Positions 22,374 through 55,868 of a stretch of 59,924 nucleotides of DNA are shown here, one piece after another. A program made the position numbers and the translations under genes. Below the pieces are notes generated by a model, which made no database searches, was not told the origin of the DNA, and saw only the letters and a list, made by a program, of their open reading frames with translations. Source of the stretch: a virus; the IMG/VR virus record IMGVR_UViG_3300046558_000406, positions 1 through 59,924 of that record. The stretch is one strand, 5' to 3'. How positions within the stretch are numbered: position 1 is the stretch's first letter; every line of letters begins with the position of its first letter.

Positions 22374-22401
22374 AGTACATGTGGCTGATCGGGAAGGGCA
22401 A
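22374..22401 (-). promoter_or_regulatory. Late promoter-like motif, leftward copy
   Basis: Read leftwards: TTGCCC (22401-22396), a 16-base spacer ending GATCAGCCACA, then TGTACT (22379-22374). It lacks one C of the GATCCAGCCACA consensus. It stands upstream of the leftward gene 22079-22345 and only a few bases from a rightward copy. Confidence 0.55.
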
Positions 22402-22404
22402 GTG

Positions 22405-22432
22405 TTGCGTTGTGGATTCAGCCACAGAAGCT
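22405..22432 (+). promoter_or_regulatory. Late promoter-like motif, copy 1
   Basis: TTGCGT, 16-base spacer ending GATTCAGCCACA, then GAAGCT. It lies 40 bases before the rightward gene at 22472. The -10 hexamer is weaker than in other copies, but the core block and spacing are the same. Confidence 0.6.
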
Positions 22433-22471
22433 TGAGGCTCGTCATTCGACATTCACGAAAAGGGGCATGAC

Positions 22472-22870
22472 ATGAGCGAAATCCAAGGGCGTCAAGTAGG
22501 CAATTACCACTTTTCCAGTCTATCCCTCGAGACAGAACTGCCAAGCGATGAGGTGCTGGAAGGCCTGATCAAATCCAAGGCGGGCGGAAAGCCTGAAACT
22601 ATCCATGGCCTGCCCAATGCGATTTTTGAAGATGAAAGCGAAAAGGGCCGGGCCTTCCGCGGCGCGTACAACGATCTGTGCCAGGAGGTTTCGCTTAAGC
22701 ATCCCTACATCATCTGTTTCGACCTCAACAACCTCGAGGGCTTAGGTGACGAAGAGGAAGAAGAAGAGGAAGAGATCGAGATTTCTAGCATCGTTCTCAT
22801 GACCGCCGAGTTTGACGCAGCCATCGAGCCGCGAGCAGTGGAACTGGCGAAGTCATTTGGCCTGATCTAA
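22472..22870 (+). CDS. Acidic phage protein with a Glu tract
   Basis: A 132-residue acidic protein. The middle (HPYIICFDLNNLEGLGD) is followed by a tract of eight consecutive glutamates near residue 95, then a beta segment and a C-terminal helix. It is the only gene between two copies of the late motif, so it has its own transcription unit. The strong negative charge could mimic DNA or serve as a chaperone, but nothing identifies a function. Confidence 0.7.
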   Translation: MSEIQGRQVGNYHFSSLSLETELPSDEVLEGLIKSKAGGKPETIHGLPNAIFEDESEKGRAFRGAYNDLCQEVSLKHPYIICFDLNNLEGLGDEEEEEEEEIEISSIVLMTAEFDAAIEPRAVELAKSFGLI

Positions 22871-22877
22871 TCACCTG

Positions 22878-22905
22878 TTGCATCGTCGATCCAGCCACAT
22901 AGCCT
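22878..22905 (+). promoter_or_regulatory. Late promoter-like motif, copy 2
   Basis: TTGCAT, 16-base spacer ending GATCCAGCCACA, then TAGCCT. It lies 63 bases before the holin-like gene and would open the lysis/packaging unit 22969-26062. Confidence 0.7.
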
Positions 22906-22968
22906 TGATGGCAAGTAGCAATCAAGCCCAAGGGCCGACGATGACCAATCACACAGCGAGGGCCGGAC

Positions 22969-23292
22969 ATGGAGTTCGTGTATCGGCTCTTTGAGAAAAT
23001 CGACGTAATCGTCGCAGGCCTGATCGGCTCACTGGTCGCCAGTTGGTGGCACCGAGACGATTTGGTCGACTATCGCGCCTGGATCATCTTCATGATCACT
23101 GGCGTGGCATGTGCGTTGTATTTGACGGGGATGGTCAGCTCGCACTTAGGCATCACGGAGCCCAGCAATGTCGCCGGGGTTGGCTTTCTGCTGGGGACCT
23201 TTGGTGGCTCCCTGATGACGGCCATCAACCGGGCGATTAAAGCCGCTGACCTTTGGGCGCTCATACGCTCGAAGTTCGGAGGAGGCAGCTAA
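22969..23292 (+). CDS. Holin-like membrane protein
   Basis: A 107-residue protein with three hydrophobic segments (VIVAGLIGSLVASWW, IIFMITGVACALYLTGMV and VAGVGFLLGTFGGSLM) and a basic C-terminus, the shape of a phage holin. It would sit in the inner membrane and form the lesion that frees the endolysin. The second gene overlaps its stop. Function from topology and position, because the endolysin is far away at 55912. Confidence 0.65.
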   Translation: MEFVYRLFEKIDVIVAGLIGSLVASWWHRDDLVDYRAWIIFMITGVACALYLTGMVSSHLGITEPSNVAGVGFLLGTFGGSLMTAINRAIKAADLWALIRSKFGGGS

Positions 23293-23639
23293 TGACGCTT
23301 CAATTCCTGAGCACCACCTTCATCGCAATCATTTCAGCCTGGGCCTTGTGGTCAATGCTCAGCCCCAAGGTTCGGGACGGCATCGTGGGCAAGTGCATCT
23401 ACGCAACCATCGCCATGGCGGGCTACGCGATCGTCCAGCGCGACGAATCGTTCTTCATCACCCCTACGGTCGCGGGTGTCACCTTTCACGCTGCCCTGGC
23501 CCTTGCTGGGGTGCGCCACATCTTCATGGTCACCTACTGGCTGACCGTCAAGGCCTGGATCTGCCGTCATCTCAACTGTGAGCACTGCGTCAACTTCGGG
23601 CCAGGTGAGACCCAGACCGAGCGCCGAAAGGGTGAATGA
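23292..23639 (+). CDS. Second holin-like membrane protein
   Basis: A 115-residue protein with three hydrophobic segments (FLSTTFIAIISAWALWSML, IYATIAMAGYAIV, TFHAALALAGVRHIFMVTYW) and a charged C-terminus with HLNCEHC. It overlaps the preceding gene by one base (TAATG), so the two are probably a holin/holin-partner or holin/antiholin pair. Confidence 0.6.
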   Translation: MTLQFLSTTFIAIISAWALWSMLSPKVRDGIVGKCIYATIAMAGYAIVQRDESFFITPTVAGVTFHAALALAGVRHIFMVTYWLTVKAWICRHLNCEHCVNFGPGETQTERRKGE

Positions 23640-23959
23640 GCTGGCTCAACCTATTCAGGCCCAAACCACATCAAGAGGACTTACCCATGGACAACGAACC
23701 ACAAGTAGTACCAGCAAACTCCGGCATTTCGGTATCGGCACAACCTGCGTTGGCGTCCGCCCCGGCTGCTGATAACAACCTCTCGCTGACCGGCGTTGCC
23801 AGCCCGACACCGGCCACGCCGCTGCAGTCCACCACCCCGACCGGAGTACCACAAGCCTCCGTCGACACCGGAAAGCTCAAAGCCCTCCTGATCACTCTGG
23901 GCCACGACATCGAGGCCGAATGGGACCACCTGATCGCCCTGGCCAAGAAAGCGCTGTAA
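23636..23959 (+). CDS. Phage hypothetical, Pro/Ala/Thr-rich linker protein
   Basis: A 107-residue protein: a short N-terminus (MSWLNLFRPKPHQED), a disordered Ala/Pro/Thr/Ser-rich middle, and one C-terminal amphipathic helix (KLKALLITLGHDIEAEWDHL). Overlaps the preceding holin-like gene by four bases. Probably lysis-associated; function unknown. Confidence 0.6.
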   Translation: MSWLNLFRPKPHQEDLPMDNEPQVVPANSGISVSAQPALASAPAADNNLSLTGVASPTPATPLQSTTPTGVPQASVDTGKLKALLITLGHDIEAEWDHLIALAKKAL

Positions 23960-23988
23960 TCGATCAATCAAGCACGGGAGCAGTGCAG

Positions 23989-24606
23989 ATGCTAGATAAG
24001 CGTTGGGACCATGATTTGGCGAAGAGGACTGACAGCTGCCTGAAGCCAGCTCTTTGGGAGAAATTCAAAGCGCTGTGCCTTCTCGCTGAGATTCCGCAGA
24101 TTCTTTATCAATACCTGGATAAGCGCGGCGAGCCATACCTGTCCGGCGCAATGAAGGTGATGCTCGTTGCGTCGAATCCGCACATACATCTCTTCGAAGG
24201 GTTTGTGCCGGAAATAATCCAGTGGGAGCCCGAGTTCGTAGTGCGGCGTGGTCGCATCGACTTCATGCTTTATCACGCTGACGGCTCGATCTCTGTGGTT
24301 GAGCTAAAAGACGGCTCAAATGGTTTGCAATCCGTACTTGCTGGGATCGGCCAAATCATGGGCTATGCAGTGCAGGTGGGGATGAATAACCCCGCTATCA
24401 GCCGGATGCAAAAGGTACTGGTGTTCTCTGCATGCCACACCATGGCTGATGACCAGATAATCATTGATGCGTGCGAGGCTGCTGGCGTGATCCCCATTCC
24501 ATTTGGTAGTGAGGGGGCGTTCCGCAAAGCAACTATGGATCACCTTTTCCGTGTTCTGGAGGAAAAGAAGCATCGGAAGCAAGAGCAGCAACATGTCCTC
24601 TTCTAG
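23989..24606 (+). CDS. Predicted PD-(D/E)XK nuclease
   Basis: A 205-residue protein. Residues 84-126 carry a complete PD-(D/E)XK core: Asp91 in RGRIDFML, Glu105-x-Lys107 in VVELKDG, and a RecB-like Gln122-x3-Tyr126 in GQIMGY. This predicts a metal-dependent DNA nuclease, related in shape to VSR/Shedu-like folds, though I cannot name a family. It is inserted between the holins and the small terminase and its last 14 bases overlap the terminase start. It might process DNA at packaging or act against other phages. GGGAG precedes the ATG. Confidence 0.65.
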   Translation: MLDKRWDHDLAKRTDSCLKPALWEKFKALCLLAEIPQILYQYLDKRGEPYLSGAMKVMLVASNPHIHLFEGFVPEIIQWEPEFVVRRGRIDFMLYHADGSISVVELKDGSNGLQSVLAGIGQIMGYAVQVGMNNPAISRMQKVLVFSACHTMADDQIIIDACEAAGVIPIPFGSEGAFRKATMDHLFRVLEEKKHRKQEQQHVLF

Positions 24607-25120
24607 TAAGCCTGAGCCGAATTGGGCGGCTATCGAAGAGGACTACCGCGCAGGGCAAATGTCAGTGCGCGGAGTCGCCGAAAAGCACGACGTCAGTGAG
24701 AGCACGTTGCGCAGCCGCGCGAAGGCATCACAATGGGCAAGAGACCTTACAAATCAAGTAGCTGCGGCAACAAGGGCGAAGATTTCGCGCACTACTTCGC
24801 GCAGCTCTGATGCCCCTGAAGAAGTGCGCGAAGATGACGATATTGTTGAGGCTAAAGCCAATGACGGGGCAAGCCTAGTCTTTGGGCATATCGCATCCCT
24901 GGATCGCTGGCAGAAGTTGGTTGATGTGTTGGCTGAAGGCCTTGTGGGCATGAAGGTCAACGAAGAGACGCATGCAGACTATGCGCGCTCGCTCAACACA
25001 GGCCTGGATGCGCAGCTAAAGATCATCAGGGCCCAGCGCCAGGCTTTCAACATTGATGAAGACTCGCACCAAGAATCCTACGAAGACCGCCTAGCGCGGC
25101 TGATGAAGGGGGAGGGATGA
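24593..25120 (+). CDS. terS: Terminase small subunit
   Basis: A 175-residue protein. The N-terminal part PNWAAIEEDYRAGQMSVRGV then EKHDVSESTLRSRAKASQWA is the DNA-recognition HTH of small terminases. A coiled middle and a C-terminal segment follow. It would bind the pac site and recruit the large subunit for headful packaging. Several small genes separate it from the large subunit gene at 26405. Confidence 0.8.
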   Translation: MSSSSKPEPNWAAIEEDYRAGQMSVRGVAEKHDVSESTLRSRAKASQWARDLTNQVAAATRAKISRTTSRSSDAPEEVREDDDIVEAKANDGASLVFGHIASLDRWQKLVDVLAEGLVGMKVNEETHADYARSLNTGLDAQLKIIRAQRQAFNIDEDSHQESYEDRLARLMKGEG

Positions 25121-25386
25121 GCGTAAATTCAGATCTTGCGATCGAGGCGTTACTCCGCTGCAAACGAGCCGAGTTCAGCAAGTCGGGCGATGGGCAAAAG
25201 ATCCTGTTGGTGTTCGGTAGCCATGTGTCCGCTCAGGATGCTGAGGATTTATCGTCAGGGTTTGAGTTAGCAGGCTATGAGGTGAGCGTACAAATTGAGC
25301 GGGAGCCGTTATCAAGGCCGCCGACCATCAGGCAGGAGCCCGTTATCGGCAACGGCCCGCGCAATCGCTGGGGAGTAGTCTCATGA
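25117..25386 (+). CDS. Phage hypothetical protein (89 aa)
   Basis: MSVNSDLAIEALLRCKRAEF, followed by a probable alpha/beta fold (KILLVFGSHVSAQDAEDL, YEVSVQIER) and a Pro-rich tail. Start and stop overlap its neighbours by four bases. It lies between the two terminase genes; function unknown. Confidence 0.6.
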   Translation: MSVNSDLAIEALLRCKRAEFSKSGDGQKILLVFGSHVSAQDAEDLSSGFELAGYEVSVQIEREPLSRPPTIRQEPVIGNGPRNRWGVVS

Positions 25387-25643
25387 GATCCACTCTTTCC
25401 CGACTGCTTAAATCTGTCGCTGATCGAATTAGCAATACGCCAGCCATGCCGACACCGCAGGAAATACAGGCGAAGATCGACTTTGTGATGCCTTGCTCGC
25501 TGTGCGGACAGCCTGCTGTATGGGCCGTGCCTGGGTATAACGCCTATGGAGAATTTGGCAGGGCGCTGCTTCGCTGCGACAAATGCGTTCATTCTGCGAC
25601 AGGCCGCCGTCGCCTCGTCGATCCGCGCCACGAAACGCCATGA
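25383..25643 (+). CDS. Small zinc-binding phage protein
   Basis: An 86-residue basic protein with CSLCGQPAVW and CDKCVHSA, two Cys pairs that probably hold one zinc ion, after an Arg/Lys-rich N-terminus. Coupled by overlaps to both neighbours. Function unknown. Confidence 0.65.
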   Translation: MRSTLSRLLKSVADRISNTPAMPTPQEIQAKIDFVMPCSLCGQPAVWAVPGYNAYGEFGRALLRCDKCVHSATGRRRLVDPRHETP

Positions 25644-25792
25644 CTGAAATCGTGGCGCGCACAAAAAAGAACTGGACCATCACCACGCCCGGCTATCGGC
25701 CATTCCCCATGATTCTGCTGGAAGAGGCATTGGATTATGGGAGGGCGCTGGCGTTTGCGCGTAGTATTTGGCCAAGGTGCGATATCAACTGA
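25640..25792 (+). CDS. Small phage protein (50 aa)
   Basis: Begins MTEIVARTKKNWTITTPGYR and continues with one helix (EEALDYGRALAFARSIW). It overlaps the preceding stop as ATGA. No family recognised. Confidence 0.55.
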   Translation: MTEIVARTKKNWTITTPGYRPFPMILLEEALDYGRALAFARSIWPRCDIN

Positions 25793-25816
25793 AGTAGGGT
25801 CGTCTTGGAGAAGGGA

Positions 25817-26062
25817 ATGAATCAGCAGGAATCACATGAGATGGTTGGCGAGCTTCTTGATGCGCTTAATCAGGATAGGCTTGATGGGCGGCAGCCGACC
25901 GCAATAGTAATGCTTGGCGACGCTTGGGCAGGCCTCATGGCAGACGTCTCGGCAATGCAGTTCATCGTTGCGGCACCTATTGGGCAGCCATATACGTTTC
26001 AGCAGATCCCGCTGAAGTCTTCTAATGCAGATGGTCCTCATAAATTTCGGCTTGAGTACTAG
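25817..26062 (+). CDS. Phage hypothetical protein (81 aa)
   Basis: MNQQESHEMVGELLDALNQD, helical start, then a beta-rich centre and end. GGAG lies upstream of the ATG at 25817. Last gene before a strong terminator. Function unknown. Confidence 0.55.
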   Translation: MNQQESHEMVGELLDALNQDRLDGRQPTAIVMLGDAWAGLMADVSAMQFIVAAPIGQPYTFQQIPLKSSNADGPHKFRLEY

Positions 26063-26127
26063 TAGAGCCAGCCATCTGCACCAAACAGCGCCGCCACGCC
26101 GCATGCGAGTACAAGATGCGTGGAGTG

Positions 26128-26155
26128 AAAGCCCGGCCTAACCCGTCGGGCTTTT
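26128..26155 (+). terminator. Terminator before the head operon
   Basis: AAAGCCCG (26128-26135) pairs with CGGGCTTT (26147-26154), followed by a T-run. It would end the lysis/small-terminase unit, ten bases before the next late promoter-like copy. Confidence 0.8.
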
Positions 26156-26164
26156 TCTTGCCTG

Positions 26165-26192
26165 TTGCACTCCCGATCCAGCCACATAACGT
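26165..26192 (+). promoter_or_regulatory. Late promoter-like motif, copy 3
   Basis: TTGCAC, 16-base spacer ending GATCCAGCCACA, then TAACGT. Directly after a terminator and 33 bases before the first gene of the head operon, so new initiation here is needed for terminase and portal expression. Confidence 0.75.
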
Positions 26193-26224
26193 CGCCCCAT
26201 CGATAAATGAGATAGGGGCGGGTT

Positions 26225-26401
26225 ATGAGTGAGGCAAAAGCATGCTCGGCGCTGAATGCTGCTGACGCCCAGGTTGGCGCGGCTGCTCAAGAGGTTGTGC
26301 GATTGGTGCTCGCCATGGGCGCCAACGCCGCAACTCTGCCGCTTGAGCTGGACGGCAAGCGATATGTCGTCAAGGTCGCCCCAGCAAAGGCGGTCGCATA
26401 A
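26225..26401 (+). CDS. Small phage protein (58 aa)
   Basis: MSEAKACSALNAADAQVGAA, one long helix, then VRLVLAMGANAATLPLELDG and a basic beta end. First gene of the head operon, three bases before the large terminase gene. A G-rich ribosome binding site precedes the ATG. Function unknown. Confidence 0.65.
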   Translation: MSEAKACSALNAADAQVGAAAQEVVRLVLAMGANAATLPLELDGKRYVVKVAPAKAVA

Positions 26402-26404
26402 CCC

Positions 26405-27940
26405 ATGTCAGCCGACGCCATGCTCAGCCAGCTCATCACCGACGATGAGCTTTACTGCGCGCGCAATCTGAAGATCCGCACGAAGAAAGGCGAGATCGTC
26501 CCTTTCATTTGGAACGACGCCCAGCGAATCCTGCACGCGGCAATTGAGAAGCAGAAGGCTGACAAGGGCTGGGTGCGCATCATCGTGCTGAAGGGCAGGC
26601 AGCAGGGCATCAGCACCTACGTGGCCGCCCGATTCTACAAGCGCACAAGCATGGGGTTCGGCAAACGAACCATGATCCTGACGCACTTGGACGCGGCCAC
26701 GCAGAACCTGTTCGGCATGGCTAAGACCTTCTTTGAGCTGAGCGACGACACTCTTCGCCCGACGATCAAGGCGAACTCCGGCACTGAACTGTCATTCGCA
26801 AAGCTGCGTAGCGGCTACAAGGTGGCGACTGCGGGAAGCCCAGGCGCTGGCCGGTCCGACACCATCCAGTACCTGCACGCCTCGGAAATGGCGTTTTGGG
26901 CCAATGCTCAGAAGATCATGGCCGGTCTCGGCCAGACGGTTCCGTTGGTCGAGGATAGCGAATCGATCATTGAATCCACAGCCAATGGCATGGGCAACCT
27001 GTTCCACGACTTCTGGGGGCTGGCAGAGGTCGGCAAGTCTGACTACGTTGCCGTGTTCATCCCTTGGTTCGCCGATCAGGAATACCGGCGCAATGCCGAC
27101 GGCTTGGACCTTTCCGACGAAGACTACGAATACATGGAGGCGTACGGCCTCGATGAAGAACAGATGGCCTGGCGGGCCGCGAAGATCCAGACGGACTTTG
27201 CTGGCGACCACAACTGGTTCAACCAGGAATACCCAGCCACGGTAGACCTTGCATTCCAGCGCATCGGTCACAAGCCGCTGATCAACACCGTCAAGGTGTC
27301 GCTGGCGCGCAAAAAACCACTGAAGAATGCCCCGCGCATCGGCGCCCACGTCGTCGGCCTCGATCCTGGCCGTGGTGGCGACCCGTCATCTTTCATTCAT
27401 CGCCAGGGCCGCGTTGCCTGGGGCCTTGAGCGCAACAACTCAGCCGACACCATGGCGGTAGCAGGGCAAGCGGCTCGCATGCTCAGTGAAGACCCGACCA
27501 TCCGCATGATGTTCATCGACATTGGCGGCATTGGTGCCGGGGTTTACGACCGTCTTGTCGAGTTGGGCTTCGGCGATCGCGTCACCGCCGTCAACTTTGG
27601 CGCATCCGCCACCGATCAGCGCAAGTACTTCAACAAGCGCTCCGAGATGTGGGGAGAGATGGCCGAGTGGATTCATGACGACATTACCCCCTGCATCCCT
27701 GACGACGACCGCCTGCATGGCGACCTGACGTCGGCTCGCGGCGATCAGTACAGCAGCAATGGTCAGCTCAAGCTGGATAAGAAAGAAGTCATCAAGAAGG
27801 AACTGCGCCGCTCCCCCGACGACGGCGACGCCCTGGCCCTGACATTCGCCGAGCCAGTGGCTGCGGACGATCAATTCACCGAAGACTGGAAGGCGAAGCT
27901 CTTGCGCCGGAACGCTCGAAAATCTGCGATGAGTGCCTGA
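26405..27940 (+). CDS. terL: Terminase large subunit
   Basis: A 511-residue packaging motor. The ATPase has a Walker A variant LKGRQQGIST (residues 62-71), a Walker B region YLHASEMAFW near 157-166 and a coupling segment SIIESTANGMG. The C-terminal RNase H-like nuclease shows VVGLDPGRGGDPSS (about 316) and MFIDIGGIGAGVYDRL (about 366). It cuts concatemeric DNA and pumps it through the portal encoded next. Length is usual for headful terminases. Confidence 0.93.
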   Translation: MSADAMLSQLITDDELYCARNLKIRTKKGEIVPFIWNDAQRILHAAIEKQKADKGWVRIIVLKGRQQGISTYVAARFYKRTSMGFGKRTMILTHLDAATQNLFGMAKTFFELSDDTLRPTIKANSGTELSFAKLRSGYKVATAGSPGAGRSDTIQYLHASEMAFWANAQKIMAGLGQTVPLVEDSESIIESTANGMGNLFHDFWGLAEVGKSDYVAVFIPWFADQEYRRNADGLDLSDEDYEYMEAYGLDEEQMAWRAAKIQTDFAGDHNWFNQEYPATVDLAFQRIGHKPLINTVKVSLARKKPLKNAPRIGAHVVGLDPGRGGDPSSFIHRQGRVAWGLERNNSADTMAVAGQAARMLSEDPTIRMMFIDIGGIGAGVYDRLVELGFGDRVTAVNFGASATDQRKYFNKRSEMWGEMAEWIHDDITPCIPDDDRLHGDLTSARGDQYSSNGQLKLDKKEVIKKELRRSPDDGDALALTFAEPVAADDQFTEDWKAKLLRRNARKSAMSA

Positions 27941-27941
27941 T

Positions 27942-30122: not shown

Positions 30123-30280
30123 GCAAGTCCGACGTCGAAATTGACCAGAAGTGGAAAGTTGAACAAGACCTTCGCTCACTGGTCGAGGCTGCAGAAATCA
30201 ACAAAGACCAGAAACGCTTGGCGGCAGTGAAGGCTCTCGCCAAGGAAAAAGCTGCCGAACTGGCAAAAATCACCAAGTAA
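30119..30280 (+). CDS. Small charged helical protein (53 aa)
   Basis: MSKSDVEIDQKWKVEQDLRS, almost entirely helical and rich in Lys and Glu, ending LAKITK. Its ATG overlaps the portal stop (ATGA), and the scaffold gene follows. Possibly an assembly factor; no function known. Confidence 0.65.
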   Translation: MSKSDVEIDQKWKVEQDLRSLVEAAEINKDQKRLAAVKALAKEKAAELAKITK

Positions 30281-30303
30281 TCACGAATACCCAGGGGCAA
30301 ACC

Positions 30304-31266: not shown

Positions 31267-31294
31267 TTGACAGCTTGATCCAGCCACATAATTT
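31267..31294 (+). promoter_or_regulatory. Late promoter-like motif, copy 4 (capsid)
   Basis: TTGACA, 16-base spacer ending GATCCAGCCACA, then TAATTT. It has the best -35 and -10 hexamers of the set, fitting the need for large amounts of capsid protein. It lies one base after the scaffold stop codon and about 210 bases before the capsid start. Confidence 0.8.
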
Positions 31295-31299
31295 CGCAA

Positions 31300-31503
31300 C
31301 TGCAACGCCATTGAGACAAGGACGTCACCCAGCTTCCTAAGTGGGTGACCCGCTCAATACGTAGCTCGCTCACCGAGTCCGGTGTCTCTCGCCAGCAGGG
31401 CGTAAAGCTGACCGATTCAAGCGCATCAGGAGCGTCCAAACCTGTCCTCGCAAGGGTGGCGACATACCCAGAACCACAAAGCCACCTTTATAGGACTGCC
31501 CTC
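31300..31503 (+). promoter_or_regulatory. Structured 5' leader of the capsid gene
   Basis: About 200 bases between the promoter-like copy at 31267 and the capsid ATG, with no gene. A perfect hairpin, GTCACCCA (31324-31331) with TGGGTGAC (31342-31349), stands near its 5' end. The length is unusual in a phage whose genes otherwise overlap. It may stabilise the capsid message. Confidence 0.4.
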
Positions 31504-32622: not shown

Positions 32623-32631
32623 GGAGGCCTC

Positions 32632-33024: not shown

Positions 33025-33031
33025 CACCACC

Positions 33032-33049
33032 GCCCCGGTTCGCCGGGGC
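33032..33049 (+). terminator. GC-rich hairpin after the decoration gene
   Basis: GCCCCGG, TTCG loop, CCGGGGC: a perfect seven-base stem. It is not followed by a T-run, so it may be a processing or attenuation hairpin that lowers expression of the genes downstream of the capsid. Confidence 0.45.
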
Positions 33050-33076
33050 AGTTCATCATGAGAAGGGGCAATAACC

Positions 33077-33472: not shown

Positions 33473-33475
33473 CCC

Positions 33476-35837: not shown

Positions 35838-35840
35838 GCC

Positions 35841-36640: not shown

Positions 36641-36654
36641 TCGGGAAGACCGCC

Positions 36655-41588: not shown

Positions 41589-41604
41589 CTGAAGAGGATT
41601 ATTC

Positions 41605-42681
41605 ATGGCGATTATTGGCTATCTTGACGCTGGCACTCGGGCGACCCCTGATGATGATTACGTCTACTCGCTTTTCCTGTTCGACTCGGTTAGTGGGGCG
41701 CAGACCGCGCAGATCGCCCTGCAGAGTCAGGCATACAACTTTGGCAATGGCACCTTGTCGAGAGATGGGTCGACCCTGGCGGTCAAGGGAGTTAACGACA
41801 GCTTTATCTATTTTTGCGACACGGCAAGCGGGAATATTCGAAAAACGCCAATCACCGGATTTATTAGTGCCGGGCAGTACGGATTTGGCCCTGAGGGTAA
41901 TTTTTACGCTTACGTTTTCGGCACCCCCGGAGTTCTGATTAGCATTCCACCTCCCTACACTACGCCGTCGTATATTTCTCTATCGTCCGATCCGATCACT
42001 GATTTCAGCGTAACCGGGGTGGCAGATCTAATTGTTATCTCAACCCGCGATCAGAATAGCGGGAGCCCCACAGGGATATTTCGGCTGAATGCCAGTACTG
42101 GGGCGCAATCTACCTATATCGACCTCGGGCAGACGGCCTGGTCGTACGGGCCCTATGCTGGCGTGACAGCAAGCCCGGATGCGCGATTCATGGCTCTATC
42201 CCCGGCAAACCTGAGACAGAACATCACTACATTCGACGTCGACGCAACTCTGTTGACGTCATCTGACTCTTCAGGCAGTAACACTGACAAGTCCAAAAAT
42301 GCTGGGTTCAGCGGCGATGGCGAACAGCTTGTATACCGGTATGGCGACACCACGCTCGCGGTGCGAAACCTAACATCCAATGTGCTCAATATTCGAGACT
42401 TCCAAGTACAACTGGATGACAACGTCACAGGCAGCCTCGCCGCCGACTACGCCCTGGTGGGAATGGTCGATGACAGTCATGTGTTGTTGCATAACCGTGG
42501 GTTGTTGGCGGTATTGGACTTTAACTCCGGGGTCGTCACGACGCGGATCAACAAGCGTAACCAAGGGCTATATGAGACTGACGGCCTACCAATCGCTTAT
42601 CTAGGGCTCGGCATCGGTGGCCCGCCACCTGAACCTACCGGGTTCTGGCAGGACTTCGTCAAAGCGACCGAGGCTGCATAG
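41605..42681 (+). CDS. WD40-like beta-propeller virion protein
   Basis: A 358-residue protein of repeated beta blades: GTLSRDGSTLAVKGVND, GFGPEGNFYAYVFGTPG, ASPDARFMALSPAN, GFSGDGEQLVYRYGD. The S-x-D-G/A-x-x-(L/F)-A motif every 45-60 residues predicts a WD40/TolB-like propeller, unusual in a phage. Downstream of the 736-residue protein, so probably an external tail component. Base composition is slightly lower in G+C than in the head genes. Confidence 0.65.
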   Translation: MAIIGYLDAGTRATPDDDYVYSLFLFDSVSGAQTAQIALQSQAYNFGNGTLSRDGSTLAVKGVNDSFIYFCDTASGNIRKTPITGFISAGQYGFGPEGNFYAYVFGTPGVLISIPPPYTTPSYISLSSDPITDFSVTGVADLIVISTRDQNSGSPTGIFRLNASTGAQSTYIDLGQTAWSYGPYAGVTASPDARFMALSPANLRQNITTFDVDATLLTSSDSSGSNTDKSKNAGFSGDGEQLVYRYGDTTLAVRNLTSNVLNIRDFQVQLDDNVTGSLAADYALVGMVDDSHVLLHNRGLLAVLDFNSGVVTTRINKRNQGLYETDGLPIAYLGLGIGGPPPEPTGFWQDFVKATEAA

Positions 42682-42684
42682 GGA

Positions 42685-42712
42685 TTGCCATAGTCATCCA
42701 GCCACATAGTTT
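42685..42712 (+). promoter_or_regulatory. Late promoter-like motif, copy 5
   Basis: TTGCCA, 16-base spacer ending CATCCAGCCACA, then TAGTTT. It begins three bases after the propeller gene and drives the two ejection-protein genes. Confidence 0.75.
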
Positions 42713-42745
42713 GACCGCATCAGAATTGGGCGTGGAGTGATTGAG

Positions 42746-44707
42746 ATGGCTGTCGGGGATTTGATTGGTGAGATCGGCAACAGTTACCTGACGGCGGCCG
42801 AACGCGCGGCCAGGGCAGGGATCAAGCCAAGTTTGGCGGATGGGTTCAATCCGGCCTCTGGGCCGGTGGCACGGGCGACTCAGCAGCTCACAAGCCTCAG
42901 CCAGGTCGCGCCCCAGACGGCGCCAGCTTCGAATCCAACCCAGGTGACTACTCCTACGCCAGCAAGTCCGCCTAGCCTGTCATCGGCGCTGCCAGCCGGA
43001 GTTGCAGCGGCAGCCCCGGCAGCATCACCTCCGGACCTGTCGCAGGCATACACGCAAAGCACTGGACTGCCTACTCAGGCACCTACCAGCTTTGCGGAGG
43101 CTGGCGCCAATATCGGCCGCGACCTCCTGCAAAATCCCCAGCTCGCGGCCCAGCAGCAGCCAGCACCAGTAACCGAAGCACCTCCGGCGGTCACGACGCC
43201 CGCGCCGATAACCCCGGACCTGCGCAGCATCGATACCACGGCCCAAGTCAATGTTCAGCCACCCGTCACCTCTCTCGGTGATGCTTATCGGCCAGTAGTC
43301 GGGACCGCCGACACGTCTAATGGCCGCACAAGTATCGTAGGCAAGCTCAATCCGGATGGCACGGCATCGTTTTCGAATGACAAAACCGACCTGCGGAGCG
43401 CTTACGGTATGGCGCCAGTAAGCGACCCTAAAACCCTGTCCCCGGCTGATCAGGCGAATATCGAGAATGCTGCTGGTTCCGGCCCCTCGTTCGCGGCTCT
43501 GGGCTCGGCCAAGAATATGGGTGATGGGGTTGGCTCGTTTTCGCAATTCAACCAGGGCGACGCCAAGCTTGCGATGGATCGGTACCAGCGGGCTCACGAT
43601 CTTCGTCAGGGCTACAAGGAAGAAGACGCTCTTGCCGTGGCGCGTCAGCAAGCCAGTATCGACGGAAGCTTCGGGTACGTAGCGGACAGTAGCAGGCCGA
43701 CTACGCGGAGCGACCTTGCGCAGGCGGGGCTTACTCAGCAGGCAGGGCAAAGCGATCAGCAAGCCATTCAAAATGCCCAGAACGCAATTTCTACAGGGCA
43801 GGCCCAGCGCGCCGCAGCAGCTCAGGCGCGACAAGCTCAGAACGTCGAAGACCTTCGGGTTGCGGCCGCCGCTCCTGATGCCACGCCACAGGCTAAGGCC
43901 GCATACAATTCGGTTATCGACCCAGATGGCTCGAAGGCGCTCGCCAGGCAAGTGCAGCAGGCGCAAATCAACAAGACCATTGCCGAAACCAGCAAAACCA
44001 AGGCAGAGGCAGATACGGCTCCCGATCTTGCCAAGTCTCAGGTTGGGAAAAACCAGGCCGAGACCGCAAAACTGACCGGTGAGGCCAATGGTACTGGCGC
44101 GGCAGGGCAGCAGCGGCAATTGAACCAGCTTGAGATTGATAAAAAGAAAACCGATGCAGCAAGTGCAGCCCAGGCCACGGCCTCACAGAAAGCCAACGCT
44201 TATGATCTGACTCGGGAGGCAAGTTCACTTGTTGCCGATATCGCCAAAAGTGATTATTTGAACAGTATTACAGGAACGCTGGACTCAAGAACGCCTACTC
44301 TTTTGGGCGGCTCGCAGGATTTGGTGAATAAGGCTCAGCGACTTCAGACGCTGCTCACGGTTGATAATTTGAAGCTGATGACCGGCGTCTTGACAGATAG
44401 GGACATAACATTCCTTTCGCAGGTTGGCTCCGGCTTGAATATTGGTGAGAACGGTATACGCGGATCCGAGGAGGGGACGAGGGAACGACTCGGCAAGATA
44501 TCCGAAAAGCTCTCATCCAAGCTTTCTGAATATGAAAAAGCCAATCCAAACGCAGGAAAGCCTCAGCCAGCACAGCAGAGCCAGCCAGCTCAGGCCCAAG
44601 CAACGCAAGGCACACCAGTCCAGATTGTCGACGCGGCTGGTTACGCAGCTCTACCATCCGGCGCCGAGTACATCGACCCGAACGGCGTTCACAGGAGTAA
44701 ACGCTAA
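42746..44707 (+). CDS. Internal virion/ejection-type protein
   Basis: A 653-residue protein. A Pro/Ala/Thr-rich disordered N-terminal third (about 30-190) precedes helical, Gln/Ala-rich coiled-coil stretches (QAQRAAAAQARQAQNVEDLR, NKTIAETSKTKAEADTAPD) and a compact C-terminal part (SLVADIAKSDYLNSITG). Such proteins are carried inside the head and sent ahead of the DNA in podoviruses. GGAG lies eight bases before the chosen ATG. Confidence 0.7.
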   Translation: MAVGDLIGEIGNSYLTAAERAARAGIKPSLADGFNPASGPVARATQQLTSLSQVAPQTAPASNPTQVTTPTPASPPSLSSALPAGVAAAAPAASPPDLSQAYTQSTGLPTQAPTSFAEAGANIGRDLLQNPQLAAQQQPAPVTEAPPAVTTPAPITPDLRSIDTTAQVNVQPPVTSLGDAYRPVVGTADTSNGRTSIVGKLNPDGTASFSNDKTDLRSAYGMAPVSDPKTLSPADQANIENAAGSGPSFAALGSAKNMGDGVGSFSQFNQGDAKLAMDRYQRAHDLRQGYKEEDALAVARQQASIDGSFGYVADSSRPTTRSDLAQAGLTQQAGQSDQQAIQNAQNAISTGQAQRAAAAQARQAQNVEDLRVAAAAPDATPQAKAAYNSVIDPDGSKALARQVQQAQINKTIAETSKTKAEADTAPDLAKSQVGKNQAETAKLTGEANGTGAAGQQRQLNQLEIDKKKTDAASAAQATASQKANAYDLTREASSLVADIAKSDYLNSITGTLDSRTPTLLGGSQDLVNKAQRLQTLLTVDNLKLMTGVLTDRDITFLSQVGSGLNIGENGIRGSEEGTRERLGKISEKLSSKLSEYEKANPNAGKPQPAQQSQPAQAQATQGTPVQIVDAAGYAALPSGAEYIDPNGVHRSKR

Positions 44708-47115
44708 TGGCCGCATGGGATGAGGATCCAGTTGTTCAGCCCGCCACGACTGTGGTCTCGCCGCCAACTCTGCCGCCGCAGACTGTCGCCCCTGTGGCCG
44801 CCAATGCATGGGAGACTGACCCGGTTGTAGCACCAGCGCCATCTGGCGCCGCCACTGCTCCGGCAAGCAGCCCGGCCAGCCCGCAAGCCTACAGTTACGT
44901 TAAACCGCCAGACGTCGGCACCGGCGAAGCATTCTTGCGCGGGGCTGGCGATGGCCTCACGTTCGGCTTTTCTGACGAGCTTGTCGGGGGCGCCAAAGCA
45001 GCCTTGCAGCCAGTATTCGGCACTGGCGACAGCAGCGATTCGTTTGGCGATCGCTTTGACAAGAACGTCGATGAGCAGCGCGGGCTACTTAAGGCCGCAC
45101 AGGACCAGCACCCGGTAGCGACCATTGCGGGTGGGTTGGTCGGCGGTATTGCGCCAGCCGTGCTGACCGGCGGTACCACGGCCGGGGCGAGCCTCGCGGC
45201 CAATGTTGGCCGGGGCGCGCTGTATGGCGCGGGATATGGAGCGGCCTACGGCTTTGGTTCTGCCGAGGGAGATCCGCTTGAGCGTCTGCCTGAAGCCGCA
45301 AAGGGCGCGGCTATTGGCGGCGTTCTGGGCGCTGCGCTCCCGGCAGTTATCGGTGGCGCCGGGGCGCTCACCCGCAGCGCGGCGAAAAAGACCGAGGCTG
45401 AGCTTGTCGCGCAGCAGGCCGCGACGCAGACAGCTCGCAACGATCAGGCGGCGGCGAACGCAGCGAACGGTAGCGCCGACGTCCTATCGGATCGGGAGGG
45501 CGTGGTTCAGGCGTTCGCTGATGCTGCTCAGTCTGGACGCAGAACTCAGGCGCAGACGCTGGCATCTCTCGCCGATGAAGTGGCGCCTGACCAGAAGATA
45601 TTGGACGCCGCAGACCATCTCGGCATGCGCGGAGACCTGATCCCATCCCAGTATTCCAAGAGCCAGGCATACCGAGAAACCGAGCAAGCCATAGCTTCTA
45701 TTCCTGGCAGCGAGATAAACGCAAAGCAGGTCGCCAGCTATCAGACGCTCTCCCAGAAAGCGGATGACCTGATAACGCAGTATGGGGGCTCGCTCGACAA
45801 GAGTGCATTTTCGGACAAGTTCAGAGTTGAAAGCCAGGCCACTATTAATGGTCTGAACAAGCAAGCTGAAGACCTGTACTCTCGCGTGACCAGCGCCATA
45901 CCGGCACAGACTCAGGCGCCGGCCGACAACACAATCGCGCTAATCCAGGGGCGAATCGCTGATTTTGGTGGTGCTTCGCTGCTGTCTGCAGATGAGCGGA
46001 AAGCTCTCAATGTGCTGATGCCGTCATCGGAAGTAATTCCCAATCCGATGATCCCCGGCACTGTGCAGACGGTAACAAAATTCCCAACGTATGCCGCATT
46101 GGATGCAGTGCGCAAGTCTGTGGGTGACGGATACAAGGGTAGAGGACCATTTGCCAATTCCAGCAGCAGAACGCTTGATGCTCTGTATTCAAGCCTGAGC
46201 AAGGATCAGCAGGCAATCGCAGATGCGGCTGGTGTCGGCAACATCTTTACCGCGGCCAAATCAGTAGTTGCTCAACGTAAGGGCCTCGAAGACAACCTCG
46301 TTCAAGCCATCGGCAAAGATATGACCGGAGCGATCACGTCCTCCTTCGGCACGGCGGTCAAAAGCTTAGAAAAGGGAGACTTCAAAAACTTCGATAAATT
46401 GATCGGCCTAATACCGCCACATCTGCGGCAAGAGGCTGTGATCACCTCTCTAAACGACGCATTCACCAACCGCAGTGGCGCTCAAAAGCAGCTCAATGTG
46501 CCTGGGTTCGTTGACTGGTATACCGGCATAAGCCGTAACGAAGCGGCAAAGGAACGCTTCACAAAGTACCTTGACCCTGGCGCCGTTAAAACGTTAGACG
46601 CCATAGCGGTCCTGGGGGGCGGCATGCGCAGAGCGTCAAAGGAATACATCACGACTGGTAAGGCTAACTCGGTCAACATGCTCAGGGACATTACCGAGGA
46701 CGGCGGGCTGCTATCCAAGGTCATGGATATAGGTAAGCAGGTTGGCGCTGCGGAGGGGGTAACAAGCTCGCTCGGCTTCCCCGGCGCTGGTACCGTCGGC
46801 GTAATGACCAAGATTCTTTCCGCCAAAAAAACTCCGATTACTGAGGCCGCCGAGGCATTGATCCAAAATCCGAAATTCCATGATGCGATTTTCACCGCAG
46901 CTAATACCAACGGCGCACAGATTGGTCGTATGCAGGCGCGGGAGGCTCAGCTCATGCGAACGCTGGCATACCGCAAGTGGTTTGCTGCTTTAGGTGAAGA
47001 TGCCAAGGCGCAAATTCGATCAGTCGGCCCGGTTACGTACCTGATGACGGATCAGACGCCGCAGACAGCAAAGCCGAAGCCGGTCGAGCTGCCGCCTACC
47101 ACTGTCACGCCATAA
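44707..47115 (+). CDS. DNA ejection protein
   Basis: An 802-residue protein, the largest in the window. The N-terminus holds a duplicated motif AWDEDPVV/AWETDPVV, then GEAFLRGAGDGLTFGFSDEL and a Gly/Ala-rich, membrane-active-looking segment (GGVLGAALPAVIGGAGALT, about 195-225). Helical coiled coils follow to the C-terminus. The pattern matches P22 gp16/gp20-like ejection proteins or a lytic-transglycosylase-free T7 gp16-type protein; no transglycosylase motif is visible. Confidence 0.75.
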   Translation: MAAWDEDPVVQPATTVVSPPTLPPQTVAPVAANAWETDPVVAPAPSGAATAPASSPASPQAYSYVKPPDVGTGEAFLRGAGDGLTFGFSDELVGGAKAALQPVFGTGDSSDSFGDRFDKNVDEQRGLLKAAQDQHPVATIAGGLVGGIAPAVLTGGTTAGASLAANVGRGALYGAGYGAAYGFGSAEGDPLERLPEAAKGAAIGGVLGAALPAVIGGAGALTRSAAKKTEAELVAQQAATQTARNDQAAANAANGSADVLSDREGVVQAFADAAQSGRRTQAQTLASLADEVAPDQKILDAADHLGMRGDLIPSQYSKSQAYRETEQAIASIPGSEINAKQVASYQTLSQKADDLITQYGGSLDKSAFSDKFRVESQATINGLNKQAEDLYSRVTSAIPAQTQAPADNTIALIQGRIADFGGASLLSADERKALNVLMPSSEVIPNPMIPGTVQTVTKFPTYAALDAVRKSVGDGYKGRGPFANSSSRTLDALYSSLSKDQQAIADAAGVGNIFTAAKSVVAQRKGLEDNLVQAIGKDMTGAITSSFGTAVKSLEKGDFKNFDKLIGLIPPHLRQEAVITSLNDAFTNRSGAQKQLNVPGFVDWYTGISRNEAAKERFTKYLDPGAVKTLDAIAVLGGGMRRASKEYITTGKANSVNMLRDITEDGGLLSKVMDIGKQVGAAEGVTSSLGFPGAGTVGVMTKILSAKKTPITEAAEALIQNPKFHDAIFTAANTNGAQIGRMQAREAQLMRTLAYRKWFAALGEDAKAQIRSVGPVTYLMTDQTPQTAKPKPVELPPTTVTP

Positions 47116-47153
47116 CCACTATGATGGCGTCTTGCTCCCCGGATCAGGACGCC

Positions 47154-47372
47154 ATGCGCGATATCAATTCAAAGCAATCACGCAAGGCTGGGCTGCGCCG
47201 CCTATGGCTCGTCATTTCGGTAATCTGGCTGGTTGGCACGATTGCCATGGTTTTCGATCACCATAATGCATTTATGCTGTTCGTACTTGCTGGCGCGCTA
47301 CCCGTTGCTGCCCTCTACACCCTGATCGCCGGTATCAACTGGGTGATCGAAGGGTTTCGCTCAGATAGATAG
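47154..47372 (+). CDS. Small membrane protein (72 aa)
   Basis: Two hydrophobic segments (LWLVISVIWLVGTIAMVF and AFMLFVLAGALPVAALYTL) connected by a short loop, with a basic N-terminus. AGGA lies five bases before the ATG at 47154; an upstream ATG pair at 47121 lacks a site. It ends exactly where the leftward exported-protein gene ends. Could be a superinfection-exclusion-type membrane protein, by position only. Confidence 0.5.
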   Translation: MRDINSKQSRKAGLRRLWLVISVIWLVGTIAMVFDHHNAFMLFVLAGALPVAALYTLIAGINWVIEGFRSDR

Positions 47373-47774
47373 CTAACAACCTGGCTTAGCAACGCCCAGA
47401 AACATAGACGCTTTATTGAGCGGCCCGAACCCGCCCCGAGATTGCGTCATGTAGGCCACGCCTTTCGCAGCGTCTACCGACCAAACCTCTACAGTCGTCC
47501 CTTGCCCGTTCGCTGCGTAGATGACAGTGGAATCACCGAGCGTGATGGTTTTGCCGCCGTCGTATGAGCCAGCATTTCCGACAACTGCAATCGATGGCTT
47601 GTCGCCGATCCTGATCACAAATACCCCGTTGCGGAAGCCGTCTTCGGATATTTTGTAGTCCTCCGTGGCGTATGCAGCGACTCCGCTCATCTGGGTAACT
47701 ACCCAGCAGGTGTCAGCCATTGCAGGGGCGGCGACCAGCACCGCTACCATCCCCGCGTAACTCCGCAGCTTCAT
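47373..47774 (-). CDS. Leftward exported protein, moron candidate
   Basis: A 133-residue protein with a signal peptide (MKLRSYAGMVAVLVAAPAMA, cleavage likely after AMA), then a beta-rich mature part with two cysteines (TCWVV near the N-terminus and the last residue) able to form a disulfide. It is transcribed against the late operons in the position of P22 sieA. An envelope-located lysogenic conversion or exclusion protein is a fair guess, not shown by sequence. Confidence 0.65.
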   Translation of the reverse strand: MKLRSYAGMVAVLVAAPAMADTCWVVTQMSGVAAYATEDYKISEDGFRNGVFVIRIGDKPSIAVVGNAGSYDGGKTITLGDSTVIYAANGQGTTVEVWSVDAAKGVAYMTQSRGGFGPLNKASMFLGVAKPGC

Positions 47775-47840
47775 CGCATCATCCTTGATCTACATTGAGA
47801 GATGGCACTATGTCATCTATCCCGACCAGGGCGATAGTCC

Positions 47841-47868
47841 TTGCAACTCTATTTCAGCCACATAGCTT
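47841..47868 (+). promoter_or_regulatory. Late promoter-like motif, copy 6
   Basis: TTGCAA, 16-base spacer ending ATTTCAGCCACA, then TAGCTT. It lies 28 bases before the 56-residue gene at 47896. Confidence 0.65.
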
Positions 47869-47895
47869 GCCCTCTAACGCCAAGAGGGCCGTATC

Positions 47896-48066
47896 ATGCA
47901 AACAAAATTCAACCCGGAAGACGACGCCTGTATCGACGCCGTAGCCGCGCGAGTTATCCAAAAGCTGGATGAACGCGAAAAGGAGCGGTCCGCGAAGACA
48001 GTAGCCGCATTCAAGGCGATTTCCGAAGGATTCGCCACTACGGTGGTTGGTCAGCGAAAGGGATAA
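47896..48066 (+). CDS. Small helical phage protein (56 aa)
   Basis: MQTKFNPEDDACIDAVAARV, one long helix rich in Glu and Lys, ending ATTVVGQRKG. It is a single-gene transcription unit: preceded by a late motif and followed by the converging leftward repressor gene. Function unknown. Confidence 0.55.
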   Translation: MQTKFNPEDDACIDAVAARVIQKLDEREKERSAKTVAAFKAISEGFATTVVGQRKG

Positions 48067-48070
48067 CGGC

Positions 48071-48451
48071 TTATCGCTTAAGTCTCCTGGGGTCCTCGCC
48101 CTTCAGGCGTGGCTTCATGGCGTCTATCTCGTCCTCATCAAAAAGCTCGGTCATATTACTGAAATCAATGGCTGCATCCGAGCCTGAGTAGCCCTTCTTG
48201 GCGTCCCGCTCAATCACTGCGAGCCGAACCTTTTCGACGAGTCCGGCCTGGGTCTCGACGAGCATCTTTAAAAATTGTTCTTGGGTGTATCGCTCAGCCG
48301 GAGACTGGTGATTGAAATAACTTTCCTCGAGGCGAGCGATTATTTCAGCATTCATCGATTTGCTGGACTGTTCAGCAGATTCCGCGAGGTGCTCATGTAG
48401 AGCCTTCGGAATGCGCAGTGTTATGCGGGTGTAGCGGTCTTCGGTATCCAT
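48071..48451 (-). CDS. Mnt-like ribbon-helix-helix repressor
   Basis: A 126-residue protein. RYTRITLRIPKALHEHLAES followed by SSKSMNAEIIARLEESYF is an Arc/Mnt ribbon-helix-helix (strand TRITLRIP, the asparagine in S-M-N-A-E-I-I-A-R-L as in Mnt). The remaining C-terminal 70 residues form a helical oligomerisation region. It is leftward and divergent from another ribbon-helix-helix gene, with three palindromic operators between, exactly the mnt-arc arrangement of P22 immI. Confidence 0.85.
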   Translation of the reverse strand: MDTEDRYTRITLRIPKALHEHLAESAEQSSKSMNAEIIARLEESYFNHQSPAERYTQEQFLKMLVETQAGLVEKVRLAVIERDAKKGYSGSDAAIDFSNMTELFDEDEIDAMKPRLKGEDPRRLKR

Positions 48452-48460
48452 TTCATCAAT

Positions 48461-48541
48461 TTACACGAAAATCGTGTCACATTTAAAGTTGACACAGTTT
48501 CAGTGTCATGTGATTCTGCGTGTGACACAACTGTCGTGTCA
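48461..48541. promoter_or_regulatory. Three TGACAC-N7-GTGTCA operators
   Basis: TTACAC-N7-GTGTCA (48461-48479), TGACAC-N7-GTGTCA (48490-48508) and TGACAC-N7-GTGTCA (48523-48541), 29 and 33 bases apart, between the divergent ribbon-helix-helix genes. The second overlaps a rightward TTGACA -35 (48489-48494), the probable promoter of the arc/ant-like operon. Confidence 0.75.
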
Positions 48542-48556
48542 CCTAAGGAGAAGGAA

Positions 48557-48709
48557 ATGGCGGAAGACGTAAGAGCAACCACAAGGATTCCAAAGCACAT
48601 CGCTGAATGGCTCAAGCTGCAAGCTAAGCAGCACCATCGCTCCATGAATGGCCAGCTCATTGAATGCCTGGAAACCCTGATGCGAAGTTCTAAAAGTGAG
48701 CGCGCATAA
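48557..48709 (+). CDS. Arc-like ribbon-helix-helix repressor (50 aa)
   Basis: MAEDVRATTRIPKHIAEWLK then HHRSMNGQLIECLETLM: the complete ribbon-helix-helix fold and almost nothing else, like Arc (53 residues). AAGGAG precedes the ATG. It lies ahead of the antirepressor gene and would repress it, as Arc does for ant in P22. Confidence 0.85.
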   Translation: MAEDVRATTRIPKHIAEWLKLQAKQHHRSMNGQLIECLETLMRSSKSERA

Positions 48710-48710
48710 A

Positions 48711-48742
48711 AAAGCCCCAGCGCTGGCAGGCGACGGGGCTTT
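48711..48742 (+). terminator. Hairpin between arc-like and ant-like genes
   Basis: AAAGCCCC (48711-48718) pairs with GGGGCTTT (48735-48742) with a 16-base partly paired loop, starting just after the Arc-like stop. A moderate terminator that would reduce antirepressor expression. Confidence 0.6.
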
Positions 48743-48776
48743 GGTTAACGAATCCAACTATCAGGAAAGAAACGTC

Positions 48777-49685
48777 ATGACGAATACTACCACAGTGGTT
48801 GACATGCGCAAATTCGTGGAGGCCCGTAACGGCGAAGTCTTCACCACGTCTCAACATGTTGCAGAGGCATTCGGGAAGCTGCACAACCATGTCCTGGCGA
48901 AGGTTCGCGGGCTCGAATGCTCTGCTCAATTTTTAACCGACAACTTTTCGTCGGTTCAGTTTGAGCATCGCGGCAACACCTACGAAGCCTTCGAGATGAC
49001 CAAAGACGGCTTCATGTTTCTGGTCATGGGGTTCACCGGCAAGAAGGCCGCCGCGATCAAGGAAAGCTACATAGCCGCCTTCAACTGGATGGCTGAACAG
49101 CTCAGCCTTTCGAGCAAGACGCTGGTTGCCAATGCCGTAGAGCAGGCTCTCGGAGTTGATGGCGCGCGGAAGCTCAGCAATGTCATGCGCTGCCGGGTGG
49201 CGAAGATGGATGTAGAGCATCAGCGCAGTGCTACCGCGAAGCTGTCATCTGCATTGCATGCCCGGTTTGGCGTGCCGCGCCTAGAACTGATTCCGGCAAG
49301 CCAGATGGATTCGGCCTGCAACTTCGTGGCGAGCTATGCGATTGAAGGCGAATACCTCGCCAAAGAAGCCGCGCACAAACCAAAGCTCAGTTACCCAATC
49401 GAGACCTTGGTCGCCCGGCGCGCAAGCATGATGACGGTGCGTAACTGCGAGCAAGCATGGCTCGACGTGACACTGCATGACCTACGCGATCTTCGAGGCA
49501 GCGAGACGCCGTGCGAGGAACTGCTGGGCGAACTGCAGAAAGCTGGCTACGACATTGAGGGCTGCTGGTGGGAGCTGAGGACGTATCGCAACAAGCTGCG
49601 CGAGCTTGCGTCGTTCGCGTCTGCCATGACCGTTACTGTTGAAAAGCCACAGCGTTATGCAGTAAAGCCGAGGAGTGCAGCATGA
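48777..49685 (+). CDS. Rha-family antirepressor
   Basis: A 302-residue protein. Residues about 10-105 form an Rha-type domain: VFTTSQHVAEAFGKLHNHVL, NTYEAFEMTKDGFMFLVMGF and AAAIKESYIAAFNWM. The C-terminal half (VEHQRSATAKLSSALHARFG, TYRNKLRELASF) is an unassigned helical domain. It holds the place of ant in P22 immI, behind the Arc-like repressor, and overlaps the KilA-N gene by four bases. Its target may be the CI repressor or another phage's repressor. Confidence 0.85.
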   Translation: MTNTTTVVDMRKFVEARNGEVFTTSQHVAEAFGKLHNHVLAKVRGLECSAQFLTDNFSSVQFEHRGNTYEAFEMTKDGFMFLVMGFTGKKAAAIKESYIAAFNWMAEQLSLSSKTLVANAVEQALGVDGARKLSNVMRCRVAKMDVEHQRSATAKLSSALHARFGVPRLELIPASQMDSACNFVASYAIEGEYLAKEAAHKPKLSYPIETLVARRASMMTVRNCEQAWLDVTLHDLRDLRGSETPCEELLGELQKAGYDIEGCWWELRTYRNKLRELASFASAMTVTVEKPQRYAVKPRSAA

Positions 49686-50182
49686 ATACCGCGATCATTC
49701 CATTTCGCTACGAGGGCGATATGGTCCGCTTTAATAGCGACGGCTGGATCAATGCGACCGAGATCGCCAAGCGAGAAGATCGTCGCCTGGATAAATGGAT
49801 TTCCACCCAGGAGACTCAGGATTACATTCGCGCCTTGGGCCATCATCTTAATACCCCTGAAAAGGGGGATTTGATTAAGACTCAGCGCGGAAGATCTGGC
49901 GGGACATGGCTGCACCCAAAACTGGCGGTGGCGTTCGCTCGGTGGTTGTCGGCTGACTTTGCTGTCTGGTGCGATCTGCACATCGACGCTTTGCTCCATG
50001 GCGAACTGAATGAAAAACAGCAGTTCGAGCGGGCCTGCCGGGCACTTGATGACGCTCAGAAAGTTGCAAGCCTCAGCGGAAGCGCACTTGCTCGGTTCAG
50101 ATACTCCAAGCCCAGGCTTGTGCGTGAAGTTGATCACTGGCGTGAGCAGCTACAGCTGACGCTAGGCCTAGACCCGGCCTAG
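49682..50182 (+). CDS. KilA-N domain protein
   Basis: A 166-residue protein with a classic KilA-N domain: FRYEGDMVRFNSDGWINATE, RLDKWISTQETQDYIRAL, GGTWLHPKLAVAFARWLSAD FAVW. KilA-N domains bind DNA and occur in phage antirepressors and killing proteins. Together with the preceding Rha protein it gives this locus two antirepressor-type genes. Followed by a terminator. Confidence 0.85.
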   Translation: MNTAIIPFRYEGDMVRFNSDGWINATEIAKREDRRLDKWISTQETQDYIRALGHHLNTPEKGDLIKTQRGRSGGTWLHPKLAVAFARWLSADFAVWCDLHIDALLHGELNEKQQFERACRALDDAQKVASLSGSALARFRYSKPRLVREVDHWREQLQLTLGLDPA

Positions 50183-50200
50183 TAACAGCTCAATCAAATT

Positions 50201-50223
50201 AACCTCGCCTCGGCGGGGTTTTG
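50201..50223 (+). terminator. Terminator after the antirepressor operon
   Basis: AACCTCGCC pairs with GGCGGGGTT around a very small loop, followed by TTGG. It closes the immI-like operon before the tail-fibre promoter-like copy. Confidence 0.6.
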
Positions 50224-50237
50224 GTCGTTCTTTGGGG

Positions 50238-50265
50238 TTGCGTCGCGGATCCAGCCACATAGCTT
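50238..50265 (+). promoter_or_regulatory. Late promoter-like motif, copy 7 (tail fibres)
   Basis: TTGCGT, 16-base spacer ending GATCCAGCCACA, then TAGCTT. It follows a terminator and precedes the first tail-fibre gene by 25 bases. Confidence 0.75.
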
Positions 50266-55847: not shown

Positions 55848-55868
55848 GCCAAACCGATACAGCCACAG

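Follow-up and report, generated by a model that had tools for sequence, protein, structure and literature searches.

The window analysed here, by which we mean the whole stretch of 59,924 bases from a single IMG/VR virus record (IMGVR_UViG_3300046558_000406), has a lambdoid layout, with an early region followed by a late region. The early genes include those for RecT and YqaJ recombination functions, a Cro-like protein, an antirepressor, a replication initiator, a DnaC-like loader, NinB and NinG, and downstream of this block lie the late genes, with holins, terminase, portal, capsid, tail-type genes, an endolysin-like gene and Rz. Pseudomonas phages make up 105 of the 136 records that match the early region, and on the strength of this similarity a Pseudomonas host is likely, although not proven. 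The features relevant to late expression, together with the integrase and CI repressor genes, are as follows:

1-1185, integrase gene
14197-14916, CI repressor gene
21720-22082, + strand, gene A, directly 3' of ninG, encoding a 120-aa HTH protein, the proposed late activator that would read CAGCCACA; residue N87 lies at the start of its predicted recognition helix
22079-22345, - strand, gene B, whose 88-aa product has no known function; it converges on gene A and follows the leftward copy
22374-22401, - strand, leftward element copy, back to back with copy 1, ahead of gene B and conserved in 19 of 19 phages
22405-22432, + strand, copy 1, TTGCGT-16-GAAGCT, ahead of the gene at 22472-22870, with orthologues of the T type (defined below) in relatives
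22878-22905, + strand, copy 2, 63 bases 5' of the first holin gene (22969)
26165-26192, + strand, copy 3, following a terminator-like hairpin and upstream of the large terminase gene
31267-31294, + strand, copy 4, 209 bases 5' of the major capsid ATG (31504)
42685-42712, + strand, copy 5, 33 bases 5' of the gene at 42746-44707
47841-47868, + strand, copy 6, 27 bases 5' of a 56-codon ORF (47896)
50238-50265, + strand, copy 7, following a terminator-like hairpin and 24 bases 5' of the gene at 50290-50895
55846-55873, + strand, copy 8, 38 bases 5' of the endolysin-like gene ATG (55912), with orthologues in relatives

The strict pattern TTG-N11-CAGCCACA-(T/G)ANNNT matches the window eight times, all on the + strand and hence in the direction of late transcription, against a chance expectation of 0.0027 per strand. 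A matrix trained on the six main copies (22878, 26165, 31267, 42685, 47841 and 50238) scored these at 34.4-36.0 and the copies at 55846 and 22405 at 25.6 and 24.8, respectively, while the best score in ten shuffled windows was 17.9 and nothing in the window beyond the eight rightward copies exceeded 13.1. The preliminary description of this DNA had placed all of its copies correctly, with TTG, the exact 16-base spacing and the block present at the six main positions and at 22405, but its inventory was incomplete, as the eighth rightward copy at 55846-55873 was absent from it. It had also put two copies directly after terminators, as holds for 26165 and 50238, and had given distances to the start codon of 25-63 bases, or about 210 at the capsid, which come close to the 24-63 and 209 bases that we measure from the hexamer. 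The block is most diverged at 47841, where it reads ATTTCAGCCACA, and GANNNT replaces TANNNT at 22405 and 55846.

The leftward copy at 22401-22374 calls for separate treatment, since its score of 13.1 is at chance level when taken alone. We nevertheless accept it as real, as had been described, because it is kept, in the same divergent position, in all 19 phages checked that have the neighbouring leftward gene. Its spacing had been noted earlier. Its -10 hexamer lacks the A at position 2, as do those of leftward copies in general, and these may therefore be weak promoters or additional binding sites. In four of the relatives (G012, G024, G048 and G049) the two divergent copies overlap, with a self-complementary TTGCAA common to both.

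Several local observations accompany these copies. At copy 8 (in the stretch 55846-55889) a terminator hairpin has the -10 hexamer within its 5' arm; a transcript starting from this copy would hence lack that arm and would escape the terminator. The capsid mRNA would carry a long leader (31295-31440) with a nearly invariant stretch around GCTCACCGAG..CGGTGT and CGCCAGCAGGGCG, and 10 of its 25 predicted pairs show changes on both sides across 11 phages; no Rfam match to 31295-31440 was found, and a structured regulatory leader is possible from the sequences alone. Between the copies at 47841 and 50238 the late region also holds a Rha-like regulator gene and a second regulator-like gene (phrog_129) at 48696-50182.

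Scanning viral contigs with the window spelling identified three close relatives in which the full set of copies recurs, and relatives of gene A led to a second group in which the copies are spelled CAGTCACA; a viral-contig scan for this second spelling then found a large group of GC-rich phages, each long record having 4-9 copies. Searching the window and its relatives, as the preliminary description had suggested, here by matrix and by pattern, respectively, thus yields eight rightward copies in the window and about 20 further viral records, known only from sequence surveys, with 4-10 copies each, mostly CAGTCACA. An exact scan of 84,980 species genomes for the window spelling returned seven single matches, approximately the number expected by chance and none in a Pseudomonas-type prophage, and no description of this element was found in the literature. 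Three phages with related capsids and without gene A (AP1, R18 and MW202615) had been considered as carriers of a diverged version and were rejected, as they contain neither an element copy nor gene A. Acidovorax phage AP1 (L024), whose capsid protein is 60% identical, has its own dispersed intergenic motif, TAGGGTTCGCGCGCG, ahead of late genes at 18296, 32898, 41591 and 45250, the last copy being degenerate, and its sequence suggests that this is perhaps another late regulon.

Our alignment comprises 108 rightward copies, the eight of the window and 100 contributed by 17 other viral records. These records are related and several are near-duplicates, so that the counts are not independent, and conservation at the searched positions is partly by construction, with only the last hexamer T being free of search bias. 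The resulting profile consists of TTG, a fixed 16-base spacing containing a free stretch followed by (A)TC and CAG(T/C)CACA, and (T/G)ANNNT, which places the block in the spacer and directly against the -10. The seven columns 5' of (A)TC carry no more than 0.25 bits each, which indicates that the copies represent a constrained site rather than duplicated DNA. No search pattern included the last T of the -10 hexamer, yet 107/108 copies have it; 106/108 have an A at the second hexamer position and most have TTG at -35, which together with the 16-base distance agrees with what a sigma-70 promoter needs, including a spacing of 16-18 bases. The middle of the -10 is GC-rich and 48 of the 64 non-redundant copies match only three of the six consensus bases; furthermore, the extended -10 TG is absent from all 64, and generic sigma-70 promoter scans listed no copy of the element.

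One base of the block varies in concert. It is C in 22/22 copies of the window clade (the window and G001-G003) and T in 86/86 copies elsewhere, and the leftward copies of all 19 phages examined likewise have C or T according to clade. The simplest cause of such a concerted change is a trans-acting reader, the specificity of which would, judging from the sites, have changed in the window clade.

Gene A is our candidate for this reader. It lies just after ninG, the place that Q occupies in lambda, and its homologues are about 80-120 aa in length, the shortest, of about 80 aa, consisting mostly of the HTH. Gene A matches no Pfam family and no nuclease family, searches of the PDB by sequence (up to E 10) and by fold returned nothing, and the protein was not found in 50,697 deposited phages. 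Fold comparison with predicted viral proteins places HTH-containing HNH and homing endonucleases among its nearest matches, and PHROGs agrees weakly, with a profile match to phrog_3377 (best E 6e-4). A profile search found gene A in 20 of the 22 long records with multiple copies, the remaining two (G010 and G036) being fragments of about 30 kb, and in none of the six long records with a single copy, where that copy is probably due to chance. The association gives a Fisher p of about 7e-5 on the assumption of independent records, which these are not. One carrier is especially informative here: G046 has five element copies and gene A, but neither its terminase nor its capsid resembles that of the window, and its portal reaches only 25%; across 60,000 of 61,997 bases compared, gene A is the sole window protein that the two have in common outside the virion gene region. 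In G047 gene A is present and the element sites are only weak and atypical. Just 5' of gene A in that genome (L227 7240-7285, minus strand) are two CAGTCACA words 18 bases apart, an arrangement suggesting that gene A may be autoregulated there.

The spelling of the block is matched by a change in the protein. At 27 columns that are invariant in 19 proteins of the CAGTCACA type the window protein differs at exactly two, L84I and Q87N, and both fall at the start of the second HTH helix, the predicted recognition helix. The start of this helix is the usual base-reading position. The placement relies on a model of an 89-aa homologue with a core pLDDT of about 90, as the model of the full-length window protein is poor (pLDDT 59), and the co-variation of base and residue represents a single evolutionary event.

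We propose a model in which the copies are late promoters of a temperate Pseudomonas-type phage and the gene A protein binds their spacer and recruits or stabilises host sigma-70 polymerase, a reading to which we assign a probability of roughly 75% in the absence of transcript, binding or genetic data. Gene A, the last gene of the early operon after ninG, would supply a small HTH protein whose target, CAG(T/C)CACA, spans roughly -20 to -13 and abuts the -10 hexamer. The bound protein would recruit or stabilise host sigma-70 RNA polymerase, which itself would contact the TTG at -35 plus the A and the last T of an otherwise poor -10. As a single factor acting at initiation, it could turn on all late units in parallel, and the leftward copy would bring gene B under the same control. 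What the sequences show directly is an element spelled alike within each genome and placed ahead of late genes, the presence of gene A alongside it, and the corresponding change in the predicted recognition helix; binding, activation, sigma-70 contact and timing are inferences of the model. The preliminary description had already envisaged many late units, each switched on by one factor that reads the spacer, with sigma-70 on weak hexamers, and this proposal passes every available comparative test, namely the element ahead of late genes in about 20 other records, the concerted change, the retained -10 A and last T, and the company of gene A; transcription remains unshown. Standing against the model are the weak sites in G047, the leftward copies without the -10 A that a promoter would want, a co-variation seen only once, and the relatedness of the records.

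Antitermination is the main rival to activation because the sites of Q and AlpA also lie in the spacer. The promoters would then fire by themselves, and gene A would encode a processive antiterminator of the Q/AlpA type, loaded at the spacer element of each late promoter to carry polymerase past downstream terminators. Its position, that of Q in lambda, would suit such a role, as would the HTH, which in Q proteins is found at the C-terminal side, and the sites of Q, AlpA and GafZ all fall between -35 and -10 (PMC9371919, PMC7969949, PMC11150451). However, antiterminators of the Q/AlpA type need a sigma-dependent pause (PMC9371919), and none was found in the initial transcribed region, where downstream positions carry no more than 0.31 bits each and a -10-like A-N3-T is common to at most 7/64 non-redundant copies at any offset; the lack of a conserved pause argues against Q-type antitermination. 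Furthermore, promoters with such poor hexamers are unlikely to fire alone, a processive factor would make many of them redundant, and the shortest homologues, at about 80 aa, consist mostly of the HTH. Nor does gene A match any solved Q or AlpA structure by sequence, albeit a weak test given that Q families are mutually dissimilar too. We consider antitermination unlikely. Activation at initiation is favoured by the weak hexamers, the site adjoining the -10 and the many parallel promoters.

The element could instead be read by another factor, either the gene B product or some host or phage protein not yet identified, with gene A having a different role. Most records with the element and gene A also have gene B, and a copy precedes gene B itself, yet gene B was rejected as the reader, as it is absent from G046, which keeps the element. 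A host protein would leave the clade-specific, genome-wide change unexplained, and gene A alone is common to G046 outside the virion gene region, so that only a slim chance is left to any other reader. Independently of this question, gene B is conserved in nearly all carriers, and its end overlaps the end of gene A. It is also conceivable that host polymerase fires these promoters unaided and that gene A, with the block as its operator, represses them or sets their timing, as the site adjoins the -10, where repressor operators are commonly found, and the paired words in G047 stand just 5' of gene A. Hexamers this poor would scarcely need repression, though, the phage already has its own CI repressor, and gene A is at the end of a lytic operon, from which its product would appear shortly before the late genes are required; we regard repression as very improbable.

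Control of several late promoters by one phage activator is familiar from C of phage Mu and Ogr of P2, the sites of which lie around or upstream of -35 and not in the spacer. The Lpa late regulon of P1 is the closest working analogue, although it is not homologous, and it is a better precedent than the lambda Q element to which the preliminary description had turned. P1 has 11 Lpa-dependent late promoters (PMC10695390), and its late transcription requires host SspA (PMC8201110). As proposed for the window, a common site lies 5' of the sigma-70 -10 at each of many dispersed late promoters, which require host polymerase together with a single small phage factor (Lpa, gp10), and two divergent P1 promoters (LP26/LPpmgL) even rely on one site. 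The P1 site, however, is a palindromic 9-bp inverted repeat at -22, further upstream and apart from the -10, whereas the window has a non-palindromic 8-mer immediately beside the -10 and retains a TTG at -35. Lpa (150 aa) was rejected as a homologue of gene A, as comparison found the proteins unrelated. On its other strand the Lpa site of P1 LPpac (L243 12476-12484) reads AAGTCACAT, close to the AGTCACAT of the element, a resemblance that is possibly a coincidence, the proteins being unrelated.

The lambda comparison retains its value as regards position, with an element between -35 and -10 and a small factor, as also for phage 21 Q, P. aeruginosa AlpA and Caulobacter GafZ, and with gene A at the locus of Q. 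It fails in that those factors act mostly at one or a few promoters, as opposed to about eight per phage here, and in that there is no conserved pause signal and the protein core is small. Finally, the HTH domains of phage HNH and homing endonucleases are among the best fold matches of gene A, which has no nuclease domain and would therefore be a stand-alone DNA-reading domain.

This analysis confirms and extends the earlier observation and identifies a candidate factor, with dispersed, activator-controlled phage late promoters being already known as a kind. Beyond the promoter reading we lean, with only modest conviction, towards a widespread, undeposited group of Pseudomonas-type phages with an undescribed late activator, a stand-alone HTH of about 80-120 aa and of homing-endonuclease ancestry, which reads an 8-base word against the -10 of about 5-10 dispersed promoters, replaces Q at the Q locus, and changed its specificity in one clade (Q87N with L84I) as all sites moved from CAGTCACA to CAGCCACA. 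The usual picture of the lambdoid late switch is a single Q-controlled promoter; if the proposal is true, a lambdoid-style early region would here be coupled to a P1-style dispersed late regulon under a very small factor. With its whole site set and two helix residues changed together, the system would offer a natural example of a transcription factor co-evolving with its regulon, one that lends itself to direct tests, and the cognate pair could find use in Pseudomonas as a compact orthogonal promoter system.
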